DNA of 64,000 nucleotides from Bradyrhizobium sp. sBnM-33 (GTDB lineage: Bacteria; Pseudomonadota; Alphaproteobacteria; Rhizobiales; Xanthobacteraceae). This document shows, one piece after another, positions 11,149 through 54,467 of this stretch. The first letter of the stretch is position 1; the number at the start of each line of letters is the position of its first letter. The notes under the pieces are model-generated. The model made no database searches. It saw only the letters and a list, made by a program, of their open reading frames with translations, and had not been told where the DNA came from. The position numbers and the translations under genes are program-made. The stretch spans positions 2,666,001 through 2,730,000 of the forward strand of contig NZ_CP136624.1 of NCBI RefSeq assembly GCF_032917945.1, given 5' to 3'.

Positions 11149-12432
11149 GACGACCGATTCCATGAAACCCGCGTGCTGCAGCAGGCTGAATTGATGGAAC
11201 GGACGGGTTGTTGGCGGATTCCTCGTTTGCGGTCGGCGAAACGAGGAGCTGTATCATGGCAGGATGGCGGCAAGCGGTCGAGTTGGCAATGAGTGATGAA
11301 GAGATTGCGACCTTGACGACGCTTTCGCGGTCGAGAATCGAACTGGCGAGCCGGGTGTCGCGGGCGCAGATGCTGCTGGCGTATCGGGAAAATCCTTCGT
11401 TCTGCGCGGTGGGCCAGAGACTTGGGGTCCATCATCAGACGGTGCAGCGCTGTGTCGAGCGGGCGCTGGCCGATGGCCCGCTGGCGGCCCTTGATGATCG
11501 TCCGCGACCGGGCAAGGAACCAACCATCACGCCGGAAGCCAAAGCCTGGTTGGTGTCGCTGGCGTGCGACAAGGCCAAGGACCACGGCTATCCACATGAG
11601 TTGTGGACGACGCGGCTCTTGGCGCGCCATGCGCGTGAACACGGGCCGGCGGCGGGGCATGCGTGTTTGGCCAATTTGGTCCAGGGAACGGTGTGCAAGA
11701 TCCTCGGCCGAGAGGAAATCAAGCCGCACAAGGTGCGTTACTATCTTGAAAATCGCGACGCCGAGTTCGAACAGAAGATGGCGGAGGTGCTGTGCGTCTA
11801 CCGCGAAGTCGAAGTCCTGAAGAAAGCCTCTGCCAAGGGAAAGAAGAAGCGGGGAAAGCCGGTGACGATCGTCTCCTGCGACGAGAAGCCGGGAATCCAG
11901 GCCATCGCAACGACGGCGCCGGATTTGCCGCCCAAGCCTGGCGTCCACGCCACCTTTGCGCGCGACCATGAATACAAACGCCATGGCACGCTCAGCCTGT
12001 TGGCTGGGATCGATCTGCTCACCGGCAAGGTCCACGCCCTTGTCAAAGATCGTCACCGCAGTCGAGAGTTCATCGAACTCCTCAGGCTTATCGATGCCGC
12101 TTATCCGCCGAACACTGCGATCAAATTGATCCTCGACAATCATTCCGCGCATATATCGAGAGAAACCAGAGCCTGGCTCGCCACTCGACCGGTGGGACGC
12201 TTCGAGCTCGCCTTCACTCCCAAGCACGGCTCATGGCTCAATCTCATCGAGGGGTTCTTCTCCAAGTTCGCCCGTTCAGTCCTCCGCCACATCCGGGTGG
12301 CCTCAAAACACGAACTCAAGGAGCGCATCATGGCCGGTATCGACGACGTCAATCGCCATCCGGTCATCCACACGTGGTCCTACAAACTCGCCGACGCCGC
12401 CTGATATGATTCGAACCAAGAAAACGCTAATC
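11149..12432 (+). mobile_element. IS630-family insertion sequence (copy 1) in ald
   Basis: A 1284-bp element flanked by the TA dinucleotide typical of IS630/Tc1 insertion (TA 11147-11148 and 12433-12434). Its ends are imperfect inverted repeats: GACGACCGATTCCATGA on the left, and GATTAGCGTTTTCTTGG read inward from the right. It contains one transposase gene in the same orientation as ald. A diverged relative is at 53204-54467. Confidence 0.9.
11256..12404 (+). CDS. IS630-family transposase
   Basis: A 382-residue transposase; the ATG at 11256 (MAGWRQAVELAMSDEE) is chosen because the second copy in this window starts at the same residue. The N-terminal half is a helix-turn-helix (VGQRLGVHHQTVQRCVERAL). 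The C-terminal half is a DDE domain with Asp in VSCDEKPGIQ, Asp in LILDNHSAHIS and Glu in LNLIEGFFSKFARSVL. No frameshift is seen, so it may be active. Confidence 0.93.
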   Translation: MAGWRQAVELAMSDEEIATLTTLSRSRIELASRVSRAQMLLAYRENPSFCAVGQRLGVHHQTVQRCVERALADGPLAALDDRPRPGKEPTITPEAKAWLVSLACDKAKDHGYPHELWTTRLLARHAREHGPAAGHACLANLVQGTVCKILGREEIKPHKVRYYLENRDAEFEQKMAEVLCVYREVEVLKKASAKGKKKRGKPVTIVSCDEKPGIQAIATTAPDLPPKPGVHATFARDHEYKRHGTLSLLAGIDLLTGKVHALVKDRHRSREFIELLRLIDAAYPPNTAIKLILDNHSAHISRETRAWLATRPVGRFELAFTPKHGSWLNLIEGFFSKFARSVLRHIRVASKHELKERIMAGIDDVNRHPVIHTWSYKLADAA

Positions 12433-12838
12433 TAGTCAGCCGCCGCATGTTAAGCTCGATGCGCAAAGGCTCTGTGATCGTGGATGTTGCTATCGATCAA
12501 GGCGGATGCTTCGAGACATCGCGTCCGACGACGCATGCTGATCCAACTTACGAGGTCGACGGCGTCATTCATTACTGTGTCGCCAACATGCCCGGAGCTG
12601 TCCCGCTTACCTCAAGCCAGGCACTGAATAATGCCACGCTGCCGTTTGGTTTGGCACTCGCCAACCAGGGATTTGCAACCGTGCTCGAAAATCCGCATCT
12701 GCGCGCAGGCCTCAATGTCTATCGGGGCCGGCTAACTTATAGGGCCGTGGCCGAGAGCCTCGGCCTGCCATTTTCACCGATCGAACAGGCTGCGGCCTGA
12801 TCCCAGAGGCCCCTCAAGGGCGTTTCCTCCCTGACTTG

Positions 12839-13265: not shown

Positions 13266-13345
13266 CACGAGTGCGTATTCCGACGATCGCGACCACCCGC
13301 TACGACGGATTGCGACCACCTATTCCGATCGATCGCGACCAGTGT
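13266..13345. repeat. IS21 right-end terminal repeats
   Basis: Three spaced copies of a GATCGCGACC/GATTGCGACC unit, in inverted orientation to the set at 20985-21082. They are probable transposase-binding sites. Confidence 0.65.
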
Positions 13346-13532
13346 GATGGTGCCGTCAGGTGCATTTTCTGATCTCAGTGTTTTGGCTCGGCGTCAAGCG
13401 CGGCGGAGGCCGTCCCCGTAGTCGACAGGAGGGACCCGCGCGCGCTGCGGAGTGCCCCCACGGCTGACGCAGCAGCGCGCGCGGGAGGTTCCTGTTGACC
13501 CACGGGGGCGGCCGGCGGGCTGGCGATGCGCT

Positions 13533-13712
13533 TCATGTTTTTGCTCCCGTGGGCGGCCTGCCGTTGGCCGGCGTTGTGGCGTCGGCCGGCGCCAGCCGCT
13601 CCTCGTCGGCTTTGAGCTTGCGCATGGACGGGCCGTCGAGCTCGATCCGATAAGCGTTGTGGACAATGCGATCCAGGACAGCGTCGCCGACGGTGGGCTC
13701 GCCGAACACGAC
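13533..13712 (-). pseudogene. istB: 3' part of split istB (IS21 ATPase)
   Basis: The reverse strand reads [20 protein letters not shown] followed by [20 protein letters not shown], ending at TGA (13533-13535). This is the conserved C-terminus of IstB proteins. It is exactly the part missing from the istB copy at 18709-19349, whose frame breaks at the same GEP codons. Confidence 0.85.
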
Positions 13713-13726
13713 AGAGTACCCCTATT

Positions 13727-14221
13727 TTGGAACGGGTCGTGTCTCACGTCACGATCACCGACCCGCATCATTTTCTGTTCGGGCACCGGCTTGAGGTGCT
13801 GAAGGAGCGGTCGGGGCGCGGTCCCGCCTACGTCGTTGTCGCGCTGCCCGACGGCCGGCGGCGGGCGGTTCGGATCGCGTCGACGGATCTTGCCGAGACG
13901 ATCACTGCCCGCCCAAACGCCGCCGATCTGCCGCGCATCAGTGCACGTACGCTGATCTCATTGATGCAACATTTGAGCGCGAGTCTGAGCCTTCTCGACG
14001 AGAAGGTGATTCGCGATGACCCACCGACCGCTTCCAGGTCGCGTTGCGTATCGACCCCTACCGACGTTGGCAAATCCACCTGGCCGTCCGGCCGACATTC
14101 CGCGCCTGTGGCCGAATCTGTCGACCGCGACGCAAACCCAGATCGCTCAAATCCTCGCCACGCTGTTGCGGCGGATGCAAGCGGTTCCCGGCACGCCCGG
14201 AAGAGGACTGGGTCGTGCTGA
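13727..14221 (+). CDS. DUF5372-family protein of cassette A
   Basis: The N-terminal 100 residues (VTITDPHHFLFGHRLEVLKE, then VVVALPDGRRRAVRIASTDL) match the pattern of small DUF5372 proteins found beside serine recombinases. Its counterpart in cassette B (VTDPTHPLYGRRFDLV) aligns well. The TTG start is supported because the cassette B gene also begins with TTG-Glu at the same place. After about residue 100 the frame continues 60 more residues that look out of frame, so the true product may be shorter. Function unknown; its fixed position suggests a recombination accessory or directionality role. Confidence 0.65.
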   Translation: MERVVSHVTITDPHHFLFGHRLEVLKERSGRGPAYVVVALPDGRRRAVRIASTDLAETITARPNAADLPRISARTLISLMQHLSASLSLLDEKVIRDDPPTASRSRCVSTPTDVGKSTWPSGRHSAPVAESVDRDANPDRSNPRHAVAADASGSRHARKRTGSC

Positions 14222-14240
14222 TCAGCTTGAACGTCGCTGA
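14016..14240 (+). CDS. Small overlapping ORF between DUF5372 and recombinase (cassette A)
   Basis: The ATG frame from 14016 contains IPRLWPNLSTATQTQIAQIL and ATLLRRM, a pattern I associate with short proteins encoded between the accessory gene and recombinase in such cassettes. Its C-terminus appears out of frame and it overlaps the DUF5372 frame heavily, so it may be decayed. Function unknown. Confidence 0.4.
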   Translation: MTHRPLPGRVAYRPLPTLANPPGRPADIPRLWPNLSTATQTQIAQILATLLRRMQAVPGTPGRGLGRADQLERR

Positions 14241-14547
14241 CGAGCGGCTCACGACAGCTGCAGTACCGCCTCGTCGATCGCGCCATCGGTCTGGGCTGGC
14301 CGCCGGAGCGCGTCCAGGTCATTGACGAGGATCTGGGCAAATCCGGTGCTGGCGGTGTGGATCGTCATGGTTTCCAGAAGCTCATTGCCGAGATCGGCCT
14401 TGGCAACGCCGGTCTCGTGGTGAGTCTCGATGCTTCGCGCTTGGCCCGCAATAACCGGGACTGGCATCAGCTTCTCGAACTGTGCTCGGTATTTGGCGTG
14501 CTGATTGCGGATGGCGAGCGGCTTTACGATCGATCATGTTGATACCT

Positions 14548-16610
14548 TCATTTGTTTGCTCTCGGGTCGAAAACGAGGTGATCTCGAGCTCCTGTCTTAA
14601 GCTCTCGCAACGCAACAATGCTGGCTTCCGTATCAGGAAAGAGGAATCGCTTGTCCCAGGGATCGCGCTGGATATCAATGGTGCCGCTGCGGATACGTCG
14701 CTTGATCCAAGAACTCGAAACTCCTAAACGCTTTGCCATTGCGGTCACCGGCAGCCAGCCAGCAATGTGACGAGCACGCGTTGTGACGCCGTCCTGCAGT
14801 ACGCGATGGCGCTGCCGCACGATCTGAACGGTTCGTACTGGAACATAATTTCGGCGCGGTGAGCGGTGCCCCTCCTGGGTCAAGGTATTGGCGATTTCGG
14901 CATCATCGAAACCCTGACGGGCCAGCTCAAGGATCCGTGCTTGCATCTCAGTCCCTCGAGTTAGAGCATGCAGTGCATGGACCCTCGGCTCGACTTCCAG
15001 TTCGGATATCTCGCCACCACACCAGACGATCCGGACCGCGATTCGATCGCGCGTGATGCGGTGGAGAACAACCTTGTCAAGCAGCGTTCGTAATAACTGC
15101 TTCTTATCTGCCCGGCTCACATCAGGCCGCTGCCAGAGCTCAGGCAAGTGTGGACCAAGCGCAAGAAACTCATTCTGCTCCTCTGGGGTCAACATGGCTG
15201 ATTTGCTCTTCGTGGCTCGGCGGGTGGTCAGCGCCTCTTCAGCCTGCCGGAGTTCGCGTAGCGCTCTTTCCCATCGCCGCTCCAGCTCAGCGGCGATGAG
15301 GCGATTGTCAGGATCGACCCGATTATACTGTCGTTCGGCCAGGAGTGCCTGATAGCGCAGTCGCTCAACCTGCTGCTCTTCGGCGCGATCAAGCGCTTCG
15401 TCAGTCTGCTGCCGCGCATTGAGCGCACGCCTCCAGGCCTCCACCTCAGCGGGAGCGATCGCTGCAAAGAAAGCAGCCACCACCTGTGCGTCGATTGGAT
15501 CGGCGGGAAGATGCTGGCATAGCGTCTTGCCTTGGTGGTTCAACAGGGAATTGCAGACGTAGCGAGACCCGCCCTTGTATTGTATCGACATCTTGTGGCC
15601 GCACCGGCCGCACCAAGTGATGCCCTGCAAGATAGCGGTCCCTTCTCGGGCACGCCACGCGTTTGATTGCGTTGGTATTCGGCATGGTTATCGCGCAACA
15701 TGGCCTGGATCCGCTCAAAGCCATCCCAATCGATGTATGCAGGATAGCGGTCCTTTACTACTACCTTCCACTCTGCCATTGGGCAGCGGGCCGTCTTCAG
15801 TTTACCACTTGCATAGGTCGTGCGGCAGGACTTGGTACGGCCATAGACGAAAGCGCCAGCATAGGCCGGATTCCTCAAAATTCCGGAAATCATGCTGGCT
15901 GATGGTGTCCGCCACGCAATATCGCCGAACCGGTCCCGCCGCGGTATGGAGAGCGCACGATCTCGGAATGACCGGATTACCTTGCCCACGGAGCCTCCCT
16001 CCAGAAATGTCGTGAAAACCAGTGATATCCGCTGCTGCACCTCCCTGCTCGGATCCTTCGATGCCACGCCATTGGCGTCACGCTCCAAACCCGCCGGTAA
16101 CAGTAACGTCAACTCGCCGCGCTCGGCCTTGGCGCGCAGCCCCGCCGTCAGACGGCCGCGCAGTGTGTGCAACTCCACTTCGGAGATTGTGCCCTTTAAG
16201 CCGAGTAACAGGCGCCCATTGGTTGAGCCAGGATCGTAGACGCCGTCGCGATCCGCAATGAGGCATTGCCGGTAGCCGCACAGATCGAGTAGCGGGTACC
16301 AATCAGAGCAGTTGCGCGCGAGACGTGTCACCTCGTAGGAGAGAATGATTCCGATTTCACCCAATGTGACGCGGGCGATAACGTCCTTGAAGCCCTCGCG
16401 ATGTGCGGCTGTCGATCCACTCAACCCAAGGTCGGCATCAACGACATCAATATTGGTATCATCCCAACCGAGATCGTTGGCTCGCTGTCGCAGTGCATAC
16501 TGCAGCCGCAGGCTTTCCTGGTTGGTCATCACCTGATGAGGCGTGGACTGCCGAATGTAAATTACGGCTCTGCGACACAGGTGGCTCCCCGTCACGAGAT
16601 CCGACCTCAT
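14548..16610 (-). pseudogene. Large serine recombinase of cassette B (single frameshift)
   Basis: The N-terminal part (16610 down to about 15620) has the complete catalytic start AVIYIRQSTPHQV with the active-site Ser, then DADLGLSGS, EVTRLARNCSDWYPLLDLCG, VYDPGSTNGRLLLGLKG and the recombinase domain ending ILRNPAYAGAFVYGRTK. Near 15625 a one-base loss shifts the frame. The other frame continues ILQGITWCGRCGHKMSIQYK (zinc ribbon), a coiled coil, and a C-terminal helix-turn-helix-like region (MAKRLGVSSSWIKRRIRSG). Restoring one base would give about 690 residues, the usual size. It may be a recently inactivated gene or a sequencing error. Confidence 0.85.
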
Positions 16611-16945
16611 GGCTCTCCTTCCAGCGAACCACGCGAGCTTGCCAATTTTGACTCGGAGCCGTGCCCTAAAGAATCATTTGTGGGCTGATTCGCCAAGCTC
16701 CTCAGCACCACGTCTCTTGAAAGCCGGAGCAAGTCTCGAATGCTTGCGAGCGAAAGCTTGCTTGACGGGACAGGCAGCCGCTCGCCATAGAGGTTGGTTG
16801 CTGAAGCTCGAATTCTCAGCAAAATGCCGTCGCGATAATGAACGAGAACGCAGCCGCCGGGTCGGAGCGAGCTTCCGGCCGATACCAAATCAAAGCGCCG
16901 TCCGTATAGTGGATGGGTTGGGTCGGTTACGGTAATCTGCTCCAA
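16607..16945 (-). CDS. DUF5372-family protein of cassette B
   Basis: A 112-residue protein from TTG 16945, ending in ATGA overlap with the recombinase start (16610). The N-terminus ITVTDPTHPLYGRRFDLVSA and the following strands (GGCVLVHYRDGILLRIRASA) match the cassette A protein. The overlap implies translational coupling with the recombinase, in line with an accessory role in integration or excision. Function unproven. Confidence 0.75.
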   Translation of the reverse strand: MEQITVTDPTHPLYGRRFDLVSAGSSLRPGGCVLVHYRDGILLRIRASATNLYGERLPVPSSKLSLASIRDLLRLSRDVVLRSLANQPTNDSLGHGSESKLASSRGSLEGEP

Positions 16946-18708
16946 CTGATCAGATGGCTCCCGAATGGGGGCATCATGCTGTGTGGTCGTACGATCCGCG
17001 CGCCTATCACGACCGCCTGCTGTTGGGCCTGTCCGGCATCATGAGCGAGGCGGAGCTGCATCAGCTTCGGATGCGCCTTCACCAAGGGGAACGCCAGAAG
17101 GCGGCGCGGGGCGAACTGCGGCTGCCGCTGCCGGCCGGTCTCGCCTACGATCGAGCGGGCACAATTGTTCTCAATCCGGATGAGGAGGTGCGGGCCCGTC
17201 TTCATCTCGTGTTTGCCAAATTCCGGGAACTGCAAAGCGCGCGTCGTGTGATGCGTTACTTGGACAGGAATGGATCGTCCTTGCCGGTTCGGCCGCTGCT
17301 TGGACCTTCTCCACACGAGATCGTCTGGCGTGCGCCAGATAGCACACGCGTCCTTAATATTCTTCAGAATCCGGCCTATGCTGGGGCGTATGTTTATGGC
17401 CGCCGGCAAAAGGATCCGAGCCGATGCCGGCCGGGATCGCTGACGGGAACGGTCAAGGTAGCGATCGCGGATTGGGCGGTTTGCCTCCACGCCGCTCACC
17501 CAGGCTATATCAGCTGGGAGGAGTTCATGGCCAACCAGGGGCGACTGGCAGATAACGTCTGCCGCTATGAGGCAGGACACTCTGGCGTACCGCGCAAGGG
17601 GGCAGCCCTGTTACAAGGAATTGCGGTCTGCGGTCGTTGAGGACGGCGCATGAGCATGCGCTACACGGGCCCGAATGCCGACTATCCGGTCTATTGCTGC
17701 CGCTCGGATCGGGACCAGCAAGGCAGTGCAATGTGCCAGGAAGTCCGGGCCTTGGCGGTTGACGCGCTGGTCGAGCGGATGGTCCTCGATGCCCTGGTGC
17801 CGGATCAGATTGAGATCGCACTCGCAGCCGCGGGCCAACTGGAGCAGGAGAGCCGTCAGCTCGAGCGCCAGTGGGCGCTTCGCGTGGAGCGCGCCCGCTA
17901 CGAGGCCGAGCGCGCTCGGCGCCAGTATGACGCCGTAGAGCCCGAGAACCGTCTTGTGGCGCGCTCACTTGAGCGGGCTTGGGAAGAGAGGCTGCGTGTC
18001 GCAGAGGCGGTCGAGCAGGAGCATGCGCGTTGGCGCGGGCAAGAGCCGCTTCTGATTGGCCCGGCGGAATGCGCAGGCTACAAGCGCTCGGCGAGAACCT
18101 ACCGCGGATTTGGAACGCGGCCACCACGTCGGCAGCCGATCGCAAGCGCATTCTGCGATTTGTGATCCGCGAAGTCGTTCTTGATCAGAAGCGGACCCGA
18201 GGTCAGGTGTGGCTCAAGATCGTCTGGCAGACCGGTGCAACCAGCGAGCATCACGTGCAACGGCGCGTTCAGACCTACCGCGATTACATCGACATTGATC
18301 GGTTGCGGCAACGGATCGTCGAGTTGAATGCTGAACACAAAATGGATGCCGAGATCGCGGCAATACTCAATCAGGAAGGCTTTGTCGCGGCCCGAGGCTG
18401 CGCCTTCAAAGGCGAGAATGTCTGGCTGTTGCGTACCCGCTGGGGCATTCCCACCGTCAAAATCAACGGCGTGGACAAGAATCCGATGCGCTGGCCCGAT
18501 GGAAGCTTCTCAATTCAGGGCGCTGCAGCCGAGCTCGGCGTCACCCCGCAAACGGTGTTCGATTATCTCGCGCGGGGATTGCTGGCAGGTCGTCAGTTAG
18601 CCAAAGGCCAGCCATGGCAGATCGAGCTCTCAGACGACCAAATCCGTCAGCTTCGCAATCGGGTACGACGCACCAAGCGTTCGAAGAAGGAGGCATCATG
18701 AAGTCATC

Positions 18709-19349
18709 GGCTCGCCAATAACCTCGTGCCAAGTTGCCACAGGGAGTTGGCTGGTGATGAGGATGGAGCCGCGGCCATGACGGTCCTCGACGATCTCCAT
18801 GAGATCGCGCCGCTGACTGGCTGAGAGGCGGTCGGGTCCCCAATCGTCCAATACAAGCAAATCGACCTTGACCAGCATCCGGAACAGTCGCGGGAAACGG
18901 CCGTCGCCATGAGCGAGATCGAGATCAGCGAACAGACGCGGCACGCGCGTGTAGTGGACCGTGTAGCCGTCGGGGCAAGCCTTTTGCGCGAGCGCGCAGG
19001 CTAACCACGACTTGCCGATTCCGCACGGGCCGGTGACCAGCAGGCCGCGGTGCTCGGCGATCCAGCGGCAGGTGGCCAACTGTTGGAACAGCGCCTTGTC
19101 GAGCCGGCGTGGCGTGCGGTAGTCGACGTCCTCGACCGCGGCTTGGCTGTGCCGCAGCCGGGCGGCGCGCAGTCGGGCCTGGAAGCGACGGGTGCTGCGA
19201 TAGGCGACCTCGCGGTCGAGCAGCAGAGCCAGCCATTCGGCGTGCGCGAGATTGCGAGCCTCCTCTTGCACCTCGAGCTCGGTGAAGGCTTGCGCCATGC
19301 CGTCGAGCTTGAGCGCTCTGAGCTGGTCTAGAGTGGGATGTGAGAGCAT
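18709..19349 (-). pseudogene. istB: 5' part of split istB (IS21 ATPase)
   Basis: From MLSHPTLDQLRALKLDGMAQ the frame gives about 212 residues of the IS21 AAA+ helper ATPase: Walker A GPCGIGKSW, Walker B LLVLDDWG and HGRGSILITSQLPVATWHEV. The IstB frame stops at IGEP, where cassette A begins, and runs into an unrelated stop at 18696. The missing C-terminus is at 13533-13712. Confidence 0.88.
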
Positions 19350-19363
19350 CAGTCGTCATCTCC

Positions 19364-20899
19364 TCAATGGAAGTAGGTCGGGCCACGGATGTTGTCGTGC
19401 GCTATCGCTGGCCCGTCCGTGGGCGTTGCGGGCTGCTGGCGATCGAGATTGTTCTTGAGGATCGAGTTGACCGAACTGTAGGAGCGCGCGCCGATCTCGA
19501 GCGCGCGGCCGCACGCAGCCTCGAGCCTCTCGCGGCCATATGTCTTGGCAAGCCGCAGGATGCCGACACAGGCGCGGAAGCCTTGCTCGGGATGCGTGCG
19601 CTCCCGCAGGATAGTCGCGATCAGTGCCGACGTGCGGCGGCCGATCTCGGCGGCGCTTCGCCGGAGGCGCTCTGGCGTCCAGTCGGCATAGCGCCGGTGG
19701 CTCGACGGCATGTGCTCGCGCACCGTCGTATGCTTGCGGTCGGAGGAAGAGCGCACATGGGCGGCAACGCATTTGCCGCAGTGGAAGACTTCAATCGTGC
19801 GCGCCGTGATGCGCGCCCAAACCTTCTCGCGCAGCAATTGGTGCGGCACCGAGTAGTAGTGCTTCTCGATCTCGACGTGGTAGTCGAGCGCGACCCTGCA
19901 TTCCTTCCATTCGGCAAAGACGTAGGGGTCGGCCGGCAGCGGCTTGAGCGCCGCGCGCTCGATCTCGTCGAACAACGCGCGGCGGCTCGCGCCGAGATGG
20001 CGCGACACGCGGTTGTTGAGCTGCGCGACCAGCTCGGCGATGGCCACGTTCAATGCGGAGAGCGAGAAGAACTGCCGGTTGCGCAGCTTCGCGATGATGA
20101 ATCGAGTCGCGACTTGCACCGCAACTTCTACCTTAGCTTTATCTTTTGGGCGCCGCGGCCGGGCTGGAACAATGGCGGTGTTGTAGTGAGCTGCCATCTC
20201 GGCGTAGGTGCGATTGACCGTCGGCTCATAGAAGCAAGCCCTGGTGACGCCCGAGCGCAGATTGTCGGACACCATCATCGCCGGAACTCCGCCGATGAAC
20301 GCAAAGGCGCGCGTGTGCGAGCCGATCCAGTCGGACAGGCCCTGCGTCCACGTGGCCTCCGCGTATGTGTAGCTCGTCGCGCCGAGCGAGGCGACGAACA
20401 GCTGGGCTGTCAACATCTCGCCGGTCGAACCATCCATCACTTCAAGCGTCGTGCCGGCGTAATCAACGAACATGCGCTCGCCAGCGACGTGGCTCTGTCG
20501 CATAGTTGGCGACAGCCGCGCCGCCCAGGCGCCATAGAGCTCACAGTAGCGCGAGTACCCGTAACCCTCCGGGTAGGCCGCGCGATGCTCCTCCCACAAT
20601 AGCTGCAGCGTCACCCCCGGCCGGCGAAGCTCGCGGTGGGCCGCCGCCCAGTCTGGCTGTGGTCGACGATTCTTTGCGCCGACTGTTGGAGGTCGGTAGA
20701 GCCGGGTCTCCAGCGCCTCGTCCGTCAGGCCTTCCGGTACCGGCCAGGTGAGGCCAGCGCGCCGTGCCCGCCGGATGCACTCCCCGGCGGCCGTCGCGCT
20801 CACCCCCAGGCTGGCGGCGATCTTGCGTTTGGACATGCCGGCGGCCGACAGCCGCAGCACGTCGCGGATTTTGCGCATGGGTAATCTCGGTCCTGGCAT
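19364..20899 (-). CDS. istA: IS21 transposase IstA
   Basis: A 511-residue transposase; the ATG at 20899 (MPGPRLPMRKIRDVLRLSAA) is preferred over a longer frame from 20956. It has an N-terminal helix-turn-helix (MSKRKIAASLGVSATAAGEC), an integrase core with Asp in FVDYAGTTLEVMD, Asp in MMVSDNLRSGV and Glu in KDKAKVEVAVQ, and a C-terminal Mu-type beta domain. istB starts 14 bp after its stop. No frameshift is visible. Confidence 0.92.
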   Translation of the reverse strand: MPGPRLPMRKIRDVLRLSAAGMSKRKIAASLGVSATAAGECIRRARRAGLTWPVPEGLTDEALETRLYRPPTVGAKNRRPQPDWAAAHRELRRPGVTLQLLWEEHRAAYPEGYGYSRYCELYGAWAARLSPTMRQSHVAGERMFVDYAGTTLEVMDGSTGEMLTAQLFVASLGATSYTYAEATWTQGLSDWIGSHTRAFAFIGGVPAMMVSDNLRSGVTRACFYEPTVNRTYAEMAAHYNTAIVPARPRRPKDKAKVEVAVQVATRFIIAKLRNRQFFSLSALNVAIAELVAQLNNRVSRHLGASRRALFDEIERAALKPLPADPYVFAEWKECRVALDYHVEIEKHYYSVPHQLLREKVWARITARTIEVFHCGKCVAAHVRSSSDRKHTTVREHMPSSHRRYADWTPERLRRSAAEIGRRTSALIATILRERTHPEQGFRACVGILRLAKTYGRERLEAACGRALEIGARSYSSVNSILKNNLDRQQPATPTDGPAIAHDNIRGPTYFH

Positions 20900-20984
20900 T
20901 TGCCCCCGCTCCTCGTGGAAAGGAGCGAAGGCCATGCTGATTCGCAGATCACCCAACGGCGCCCGTCACACCCGTCCACAGGCT

Positions 20985-21082
20985 GGTCGCGATCGCCCGG
21001 AATGGGTGGTCGCGATCAATCGGAACGCCTGGTCGCAATCAATCGGTAGAGCCGGTCGCGATCGCTCGGTGCGCGCACTGAC
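20985..21082. repeat. IS21 left-end terminal repeats
   Basis: Four spaced copies of a GGTCGCGATC-type unit just upstream of istA, the inverse of the right-end set. The end is placed near the GTCAGTGCGC on the reverse strand. Confidence 0.65.
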
Positions 21083-53184: not shown

Positions 53185-53203
53185 TCACTGTGACGAGGTA
53201 CTA

Positions 53204-54467
53204 GATCATCGTTTTCTTGGTTCGAATCATATCAGGCGGCGTCGGCGAGTTTGTAGGACCAAGTATGGACGACGGGATGGCGATTGACGTCGTCGATTCC
53301 GGCCATGATGCGCTCTTTGAGTTCGTGCTTTGATGTAACCCTGATGTGACGCAGGACGGAGCGGGCGAACTTGGAGAAGAAGCCCTCGATGAGGTTGAGC
53401 CAGGAGCCGTGCTTGGGCGTGAAGGTAAACTGGAAGCGGCCTGCCGGTCGTGTGTCGAGCCAGGCTCTGGTTTCCCTCGAGATGTGCGCGGAATGATTGT
53501 CGAGGATCAACTTGATCGCGGTCCTGGCCGGATAGGCGGCATCGAGAAGCTTGAGGAATTCTACGAACTCTCGGCTGCGGTGGCGGTCTTTGACGAGCGC
53601 GTGGACCTTCCCGGTGAGCAGGTCAATGCCCGCCAACAGGCTGAGCGTGCCGTGACGTTTGTACTCATGATCGCGCGCGAAGGTCGCATGTACGCCCGGC
53701 ACAGGCGGCAGATCCGGCGCTGTCGTCGCGACGGCCTGTATTCCCGGCTTCTCGTCGTAGGAGACGATCGCTACCGGTTTGTCCGACTTCTTCGATCGGG
53801 CGGCGGCTTTTTTCAGGACCTGGACCTCGCGATAGACATACAGAACCTCAGCCATCTTCTGCTCGAACTCGGCGTCGCGGTTTTCAAGATAGTAGCGCAC
53901 CTTGTGCGGCTTGATTTCCTGCTGACCGAGAAGCTTGCACACCGTGCCCTGAACCAGACGGGCGAGACATTCATGTCCGGCCTCTGGTCCGTGCTCGCGG
54001 GCATGGCGGGCCAGCAGTCGCGTCGTCCACAACTCGTGCGGATAGCCATGCTCCTTGGCCTTGTCGCACGCCAGAGACACCAGCCAGGCCTTGGCCGCCG
54101 GCGTGATCACCGGCTCCTTGCCCGGTCGCGGGCGCTCATCGAGCGCCGCCAGCGCGCCATCAGCCGCCGCCCGCTCGACGCAGCGCTGGACCGTCTGATG
54201 ATGGGCGCCAAGTCTTTGTCCCACCGCAAAGAACGACGGGGTCTCGCGGTAGGCAAGCAGCATCGCAGCCCGCGATACCCGGCGCGCCGGTTCGGTCCGC
54301 GACCGCGAAAGAGCCGTCAACGTTTCAATCTCTTCGTCGGTCATCGCCAACTCGACCGCTTGCCGCCATCCTGCCATGATGAAACTCCTCGTTCAGTCAA
54401 TCGCAAACGAGGAATCCACAAACAAACCTCCCGTTCCATGACTGCCAAGTTCATGGAATCGGTCGTC
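53204..54467 (-). mobile_element. IS630-family insertion sequence (copy 2)
   Basis: 1264 bp, flanked by TA at 53202-53203 and 54468-54469. Outer end GACGACCGATTCCATGA is the same as in copy 1 (11149), and so is AAGAAAACG near the other end. It sits exactly at the TA bordering the preceding IS630 element. Confidence 0.88.
53232..54377 (-). CDS. IS630-family transposase (copy 2)
   Basis: 381 residues, closely similar to the transposase in ald but with many substitutions. Helix-turn-helix VGQRLGAHHQTVQRCVERAA; catalytic residues in VSYDEKPGIQ, LILDNHSAHIS and LNLIEGFFSKFARSVL. Frame intact. Confidence 0.93.
   Translation of the reverse strand: MAGWRQAVELAMTDEEIETLTALSRSRTEPARRVSRAAMLLAYRETPSFFAVGQRLGAHHQTVQRCVERAAADGALAALDERPRPGKEPVITPAAKAWLVSLACDKAKEHGYPHELWTTRLLARHAREHGPEAGHECLARLVQGTVCKLLGQQEIKPHKVRYYLENRDAEFEQKMAEVLYVYREVQVLKKAAARSKKSDKPVAIVSYDEKPGIQAVATTAPDLPPVPGVHATFARDHEYKRHGTLSLLAGIDLLTGKVHALVKDRHRSREFVEFLKLLDAAYPARTAIKLILDNHSAHISRETRAWLDTRPAGRFQFTFTPKHGSWLNLIEGFFSKFARSVLRHIRVTSKHELKERIMAGIDDVNRHPVVHTWSYKLADAA

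Follow-up and report, generated by a model that had tools for sequence, protein, structure and literature searches.

Nested 2.5-kb serine recombinase elements in Bradyrhizobium, with codon-level targets and a predicted attachment site inside their DUF5372 gene

The stretch of DNA analyzed here (the window, 64,000 nucleotides) spans positions 2666001-2730000 of the closed 9.18-Mb genome of Bradyrhizobium sp. sBnM-33 and holds two small elements, A and B, each of which pairs a large serine recombinase gene with a DUF5372 gene. The elements are nested, i.e. B lies within the recombinase gene of A, and A lies within istB of a minus-strand IS21-family element. When the right end of either element is joined to its left end, a single open reading frame (ORF) runs through DUF5372, and relatives of A and B insert between codons, mostly in key genes of other mobile elements. 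The locus has the following features (window coordinates; a caret marks the insertion point):

13285..21040, minus strand: IS21-family element carrying A, with B inside (istA, istB pieces, 58-bp inverted match of 81%)
13285-13342 and 20983-21040: imperfect terminal inverted repeats of the IS21 element
19364-20956, minus strand: istA
18712..19349, minus strand: 5' part of istB (PF01695; empty-site comparison)
13404..13700, minus strand: 3' part of istB, the IstB C-terminus from the G^E junction on; low end approximate
13701..18711, plus strand: element A, of the IstB-targeting clade
13699..13700: left core dinucleotide of A, TC
18712..18713: right core dinucleotide of A, TC
13701..14221, plus strand: DUF5372 gene of A, start absent (start signals at 18688-18700); joined-ends ORF of 178 aa
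18688..18711, plus strand: right end of A, with Shine-Dalgarno (SD) sequence GGAGG and ATG at 18698-18700, 14 nt from ATG to core
14215..18701, plus strand: large serine recombinase gene of A, with an approximate start, a frameshift, and B inserted at the YDP codons
14527..16989, minus strand: element B, 2,463 bp, of the recombinase-targeting clade
14525..14526: core dinucleotide of B at its right end, TA
16990..16991: core dinucleotide of B at its left end, TA
16607..16989, minus strand: DUF5372 gene of B, without start, overlapping the recombinase start by 4 bp
14527..14548, minus strand: right end of B, with SD-like AAGG and ATG at 14537-14535, 11 nt from ATG to core
14548..16610, minus strand: large serine recombinase gene of B (resolvase, recombinase, and zinc ribbon domains), frameshifted near 15600

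With B inside, A measures 5,011 bp; its own length, i.e. minus B and one core, is 2,546 bp. The Pfam domains PF00239, PF07508, and PF13408 (resolvase, recombinase, and zinc ribbon) match over the recombinase pieces of the window and occur in nearly all of 120 listed relatives, and both window recombinase genes are frameshifted. The DUF5372 label, proposed in an earlier reading of the sequence alone (hereafter the sequence-only reading), holds in part: the proteins of A and B fall below the Pfam cut-off (17.7 and 14.2 bits vs 25), but at least 6 of the 120 listed relatives, found with a profile built from the window gene, carry PF17342 or the name DUF5372. By this similarity, the window proteins are divergent relatives of PF17342. 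The TTG previously put forward as the start of DUF5372 is unlikely to be its native start, and the small ORF described in A (14016-14240) is an overlap with DUF5372 in another frame, the DUF5372 frame of A itself running from 13701 to 14221.

Both cassettes, their gene order, and both direct repeats lie where the sequence-only reading placed them, with the repeat of A (GGCTCGCC) at 13696-13703 and 18709-18716 and that of B (TACGATC) at 14525-14531 and 16990-16996. These repeats had been taken as cores; the exact repeats are present, but the core is only 2 nt (TC in A, TA in B) and the remainder is site similarity. The empty site of A is provided by four uninterrupted copies of this IS21 elsewhere in the genome, which match the flanks of A at about 96-97% and in which the left and right flanks meet with an overlap of exactly GGCTCGCC (8 bp). 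The 3' part of istB matches these copies at 95.8%, being contiguous there with the other istB part, and the ORF crossing the joined flanks matches intact IstB at 99%, i.e. removal of A restores IstB. Removal of B likewise restores the recombinase frame of A at this site: over 400 bp, the joined flanks align gaplessly with intact relatives of the A recombinase, with 395 positions identical to L140, 379 to L184, and 375 to L143 (L numbers denote loci). The flanking repeats are thus far better than chance.

A second copy of B (99.35%) lies about 0.84 Mb away at L015 6292-8757, where it interrupts a different recombinase gene, again at Tyr-Asp-Pro codons. By eye, L015 3700-11290 contains B in an element E2, E2 in the recombinase gene of an element E1, and E1 in a tyrosine recombinase gene, i.e. 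elements nested three deep in a fourth gene. Elsewhere in this genome (L018 475-2984), a recombinase fragment of the A/B family adjoins a group II intron-like reverse transcriptase ORF.

Related recombinases are present in many genomes and plasmids. A scan of genome contigs gives 74 loci, not all of them proved to be full elements, from Alpha- and Betaproteobacteria, cyanobacteria, Planctomycetota, Acidobacteriota, Ktedonospora, and others, including close relatives of B in Bradyrhizobium records L024, L029, and L030. Searching plasmids at the protein level returns 128 records with the B type and 197 with the A type, from which 20 and then 7 more were fetched. Family genes are mostly annotated as 'recombinase family protein' and 'hypothetical protein' in the plasmid records, and the relatives' recombinase has about 690-700 aa with an N-terminal resolvase domain. 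Boundaries are conserved: in Mesorhizobium AR07, five copies share about 2,474 bp, 99.76-99.96% identical to L028, and L028 is unlike the other four outside the ends, those four sitting in related recombinase genes. Element length is 2.4-2.75 kb in several phyla, with no room for a further gene between the ends.

Loci were selected on recombinase similarity, not on target. Near-full recombinases number 74, in 72 of 111 loci; 47 of these plus A and B of the window gave both ends, i.e. 49 delimited elements, while 27 others were omitted because the recombinase was a second or a broken one, a contig end intervened, or the element ends could not be placed. Ends were set by hand for 22 of the 49, from target homology and core with the sequence visible, and by script for 27; L135 and L154 are one insertion in two collections. 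Other than A, the 48 delimited elements measure 2,439-2,633 bp between cores, in line with the minimal 2.5-kb element and near-seamless footprint proposed from the window. When the same elements are compared across targets, the base at the left junction comes from the target and that at the right junction from the element, so the crossover is confined to two bases; the core of A was narrowed by insertions of the L143 and L137 type. The core is the same at both junctions in most elements and varies with the target.

To assign targets, flanks were joined with one core, and the ORF crossing the junction had to match intact references on both sides. By this test, a mobile-element gene is restored in 40 of the 49 delimited elements (39 of 48 distinct insertions): IS66 tnpB in 19, IS21 istB in 11, a recombinase gene in 6, and a reverse transcriptase gene in 4. 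L142 is counted as spanning, though its two flanks derive from different istB copies. In all 40, the insertion falls between codons, and the two core bases open the codon that follows. Specifically, 18 tnpB sites are at L^[LF][EDS][GA][IL]-type codons (mostly ^LEGIDW) and 1 at DMRKS^FNGL; istB sites are mostly G^D or G^E, with two P^D; recombinase sites are DG[VIT]^Y or ERL^Y; and reverse transcriptase sites are [CF]^FD. Insertions in either orientation are seen for tnpB, istB, and recombinase targets, while the reverse transcriptase cases are antisense in 4 of 4. The 9 unrestored elements include L137 (istB match) and L047 (tnpB match), neither spanning, L024 at a contig end, L043 (flanks tnpB by eye), L054 in IS66 tnpC, and L057 in a DDE transposase gene, as well as L028, L050, and L038; tnpC is also the target of L058 and L067, these tnpC and DDE assignments being made by eye. 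Eight further elements have as targets tnpB (2), reverse transcriptase (2), istB (1), a TRAP transporter gene (1), and, by eye, an integrase-type transposase at GSV^GDSYDNA (1); the flanks of the eighth, L187, no longer join.

The target gene follows the recombinase clade. The 7 target labels, placed on 47 rows of a tree of 58 recombinases, change 6 times, which is the minimum, against a mean of 21.9 for shuffled labels (0 of 200 shuffles as low as 6). The tree was made by a quick method with long-branch warnings; L041 and L054 were dropped for a stop, 11 of the 58 rows are unlabelled, about a dozen labels come from half matches or by-eye reading, L093 leaves the tnpB group with no support value, and the row 'winB' is P0002, a 99% database relative. 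By itself, the reverse transcriptase label requires three changes, and L156 is placed far from the remaining reverse transcriptase rows, so that this target was probably acquired repeatedly, as judged from the tree.

The ends themselves reveal a point that is new to this analysis. At every right end examined, the recombinase stop is accompanied by an SD-like sequence and a start codon, with 11 or 14-15 nt to the core, and no stop closes the DUF5372 frame at the left end. Linking the two ends through the core produces a single ORF that spans DUF5372 in 52 of 52 elements from 28 clusters (80% DNA identity), the 52 being the 49 delimited elements plus L058, E2 (from the omitted 27), and E1, added by hand. 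E1 and E2 each have an in-frame DUF5372-like ORF across their joined ends, the start codon of L058 is GTG, and the joined-ends ORF of B has 131 aa and begins MIDRTTTQHDAPIREPSDQLEQITVTD. Control joins with one or two bases inserted reach stops after 4-71 codons. The frame-free expectation for 28 of 28 clusters is about 4e-14; because clusters share ancestry, this value measures conservation and not the probability of independent trials. The DUF5372 motif script recovers 51 of the 52, with L053 (DQRHPLFG) counted by eye, and the SD test is lenient. As such, the attachment site of the free form (attP) is, on the sequence of the joined ends, placed within the 5' part of DUF5372.

With ends set by core match alone, blind to frame, 28 of 33 elements give the in-frame ORF at once; the other five are L055 and L069, which are in frame once set by hand, and L051, L064, and L066, whose ends are unsettled, while L093 is in frame but has an uncertain core and is uncounted. 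A cruder rule, taking the first CGA in the stretch, puts 19 of the automatically handled elements out of frame, the CGA being taken in the target or in the wrong place. All eight further elements are in frame, three of them with recombinases about 40% identical to the queries; L187 (2501-4567) has CTG in place of ATG at its right end and keeps the frame, although its flanks no longer restore a target. The junctions of these eight, one of which is L156 from the omitted 27, were set by hand. In L156 and L190 the core can be placed in more than one way and the placement restoring the target frame was taken, L156 being out of frame under the alternative; L186, L188, and L192 closely resemble members of the 52, so the eight are not all independent.

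Integration leaves these start signals at the far end and thereby decapitates DUF5372. Among the 49 integrated elements, an in-frame ATG ahead of the domain is found in none, 20 have no start codon at all, and in 42 an SD-like sequence before any start is absent. The two arms of attP form a near-palindrome: they match at similar offsets, and each has ATxCCCC at roughly the same offset (17 of 49 pairs printed).

Joined ends of this kind also exist in nature, to judge from database sequences. The database protein P0157 is identical to the predicted closed-end form of L143 over its first 37 residues, and P0125 (MPDRTSTHHNAPIRFGDDQ...), from a 784-bp contig, matches the pattern predicted for AR07 (MIDRTSTHLNAPIRFGDDQ...). 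An A-type attP pattern has 24 hits, spread over 16 of the 265 genomes of the genus; of 15 such loci read, 14 either join an element to a target or are ambiguous, and one (L183) truly joins the ends of two elements. These two elements, both A-type and 78-83% alike, form a head-to-tail pair, at L184 2459-7721, with an attP-type junction between them. Near 1500-1600 of L182, and in L185, an istB-like flank stands beside an A-type right end with about 17 nt like the element's own left end, which may reflect an imprecise event or conversion.

Given the boundaries, empty sites, target codons, clade specificity, insertion in both orientations, and in-frame ORF across the joined ends, all of which are seen in the sequence, the best explanation (probability roughly 0.8) is that A and B are small, cargo-free, site-specific transposable elements with a circular free form, whose codon-targeted integration removes the start of DUF5372. 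The sequence-only reading was thus largely right about the elements, but it missed the target codon lying mostly in a mobile-element gene, the link of target to clade, and the attachment site that splits DUF5372. The mobile form would be a circle carrying the recombinase and DUF5372 genes, with attP in the 5' part of the latter. By analogy with large serine recombinases in general, the recombinase would bind the near-palindromic attP, synapse it with the target, and exchange strands at the 2-nt core, and excision would regenerate the circle. It would join attP to a conserved codon motif in either orientation, for A in IS21 istB and for B in a sibling recombinase gene; the near-palindromic arms would explain insertion in both orientations, and reading conserved codons of very common mobile genes would keep targets often available and host genes unharmed. 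Insertion would break the target gene and part DUF5372 from its SD sequence and start codon, so that DUF5372 would be made mainly from the circle, where the 4-bp overlap seen in B could let translation pass from DUF5372 to the recombinase. DUF5372 may then be a circle-stage cofactor, i.e. a small nucleic-acid- or recombinase-binding protein that perhaps acts in attP binding or target choice. A weak match to a KOW/SH3-like fold agrees with a small binding protein, and we advance the idea of a cofactor silenced by integration tentatively, at a little below even odds.

Several observations weigh against this explanation. Left and right core bases differ in some insertions (CA/CT, TT/CT), so the two need not be identical; 41 of 49 right ends, and not all of them, show a stricter SD pattern; and the shifted control is also open (131-137 aa) in 6 of 33 elements, through a second overlapping ATG and with any ATG allowed. 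The natural junction inspected in context (L184) is a tandem and no circle, P0125 and P0157 may be tandems too, and scans with attP patterns give 0 matches in viral contigs and, for the tnpB clade, in 0 of 265 genomes. Furthermore, 29 of the 49 integrated elements have an in-frame GTG or TTG ahead of the domain, 7 of the 49 with an SD-like sequence preceding such a codon, which leaves room for some production of DUF5372, and the SD-bearing right arm is half of a near-palindrome, part of the SD sequence possibly being kept for recombinase binding. These GTG and TTG codons, together with the shared ATxCCCC offset of the arms, fit a split that is incidental, with DUF5372 translated in the integrated state as an ordinary accessory or directionality factor and the SD-ATG a by-product of the arm. 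Most known serine integrases need a directionality factor, necessarily made in the integrated state, which counts in the same direction. We nevertheless consider an incidental split unlikely: start codons are absent in 20 of 49 elements, ATG in all, and SD-like sequences in 42, whereas at the right end the start keeps its 11 or 14-15 nt from the core and the DUF5372 frame is kept over deep divergence, and arm constraint does not explain frame.

The targets also include cases that do not fit. L186 lies in an annotated TRAP transporter gene and not in a mobile-element transposition gene; L028 (5614-8087), a B-clade copy nearly identical to sister copies inserted in recombinase genes, lies in an apparent phage tape-measure gene (by eye) at S^YDQ; L050 lies in an apparent restriction-enzyme gene (by eye), and no mobile gene is assigned for L038. 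If specificity were loose and copies survived in repeated transposase genes, the targets could reflect abundance. In favour of this, the target genes are multi-copy and lie in repeat-rich parts of plasmids and genomes, the off-targets L028, L050, and L186 exist, and multi-targeting is known among large serine recombinases from the available text of PMC10083194. This is improbable, as insertions of a given clade hit one and the same codon in one kind of gene even where the target genes are little alike, the target tracks the recombinase tree, and the junction codon is similar in the off-targets L028 (S^YDQ) and L186 (M^FEV). That A and B are decayed remnants of a prophage or an integrative and conjugative element, nested by chance and forming no element class, is in keeping with the two broken recombinase genes of the window but is refuted by the common ends and empty sites, and we give it almost no weight: the ends are sharp, near-identical elements occur in many copies, and a length of 2.4-2.75 kb with no further gene room recurs in several phyla.

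TnpX/TndX-type transposons carry cargo and have looser targets. Unlike these, the window elements have no room for a cargo gene, and DUF4368 has no match among the Pfam hits of the window recombinase pieces (E 0.001). The family resembles this type (Tn4451, Tn5397) and, going by the accessible sections of PMC10083194, the multi-targeting DUF4368 clade in using a large serine recombinase as transposase at many sites. The same sections describe large serine recombinase integrative elements (e.g. those of the phage integrases Bxb1 and phiC31) with which the family shares three domains, a recombinase gene beside an attachment site, a 2-nt core, clade-specific target sites (attB), no duplication beyond the core, exact junctions, and an empty site. 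By contrast with these, the A/B family is cargo-free and about 2.5 kb, has its attB in conserved codons of other mobile elements and its attP inside an element gene, and its core is not strictly shared; in the main text of PMC10083194, the terms IS66, insertion sequence, and reverse transcriptase occur 0 times.

As portrayed in the available parts of PMC6188088 and PMC4058570, the IS607 family is likewise small, cargo-free, and driven by a serine recombinase, but its recombinase has inverted domain order, its two genes are of another kind, and its target specificity is minimal; in the A/B family the resolvase domain is instead N-terminal, and the recombinase of relatives has about 690-700 aa. 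The integration-dependent immunity system of the mycobacteriophage BPs, as far as the accessible text of PMC4557955 goes, is similar in having attP inside an element gene whose product is altered by integration, the repressor of BPs losing its C-terminal tail where DUF5372 is predicted to lose its 5' start signals. The multi-targeting recombinases (PMC10083194) and this attP-in-repressor switch (PMC4557955) are, within the portions available to us, the closest published ideas. DUF5372 was not found in the open-licence literature, though subscription papers may differ. In the accessible portions of that literature, we found no description of serine recombinases with IS66, istB, group II introns, nesting, or hyperparasitism, nor of attP with start codons.

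Apart from the elements described here, window positions 12000-12437 and 53200-53636 are inverted copies, 87% alike, and the region overlaps a transposase-like ORF at 11208-12404.

These findings point to a widespread unnamed family whose targets are conserved coding motifs in other mobile elements, which it may thus curb. Its many natural recombinases with known, distinct target sites are useful for studying and choosing integrases, and DUF5372 offers a testable case of a gene that is whole only with the element ends joined. A further possibility, to which we lean slightly less than to its opposite, is that the family is a hyperparasitic class, in which DUF5372 made only by the circle would drive or license attack on conserved catalytic codons of rivals, integration would be self-limiting, and clades would be specialised by victim. 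If so, nested stacks would accumulate in which IS21, IS66, group II introns, and fellow elements are silenced.

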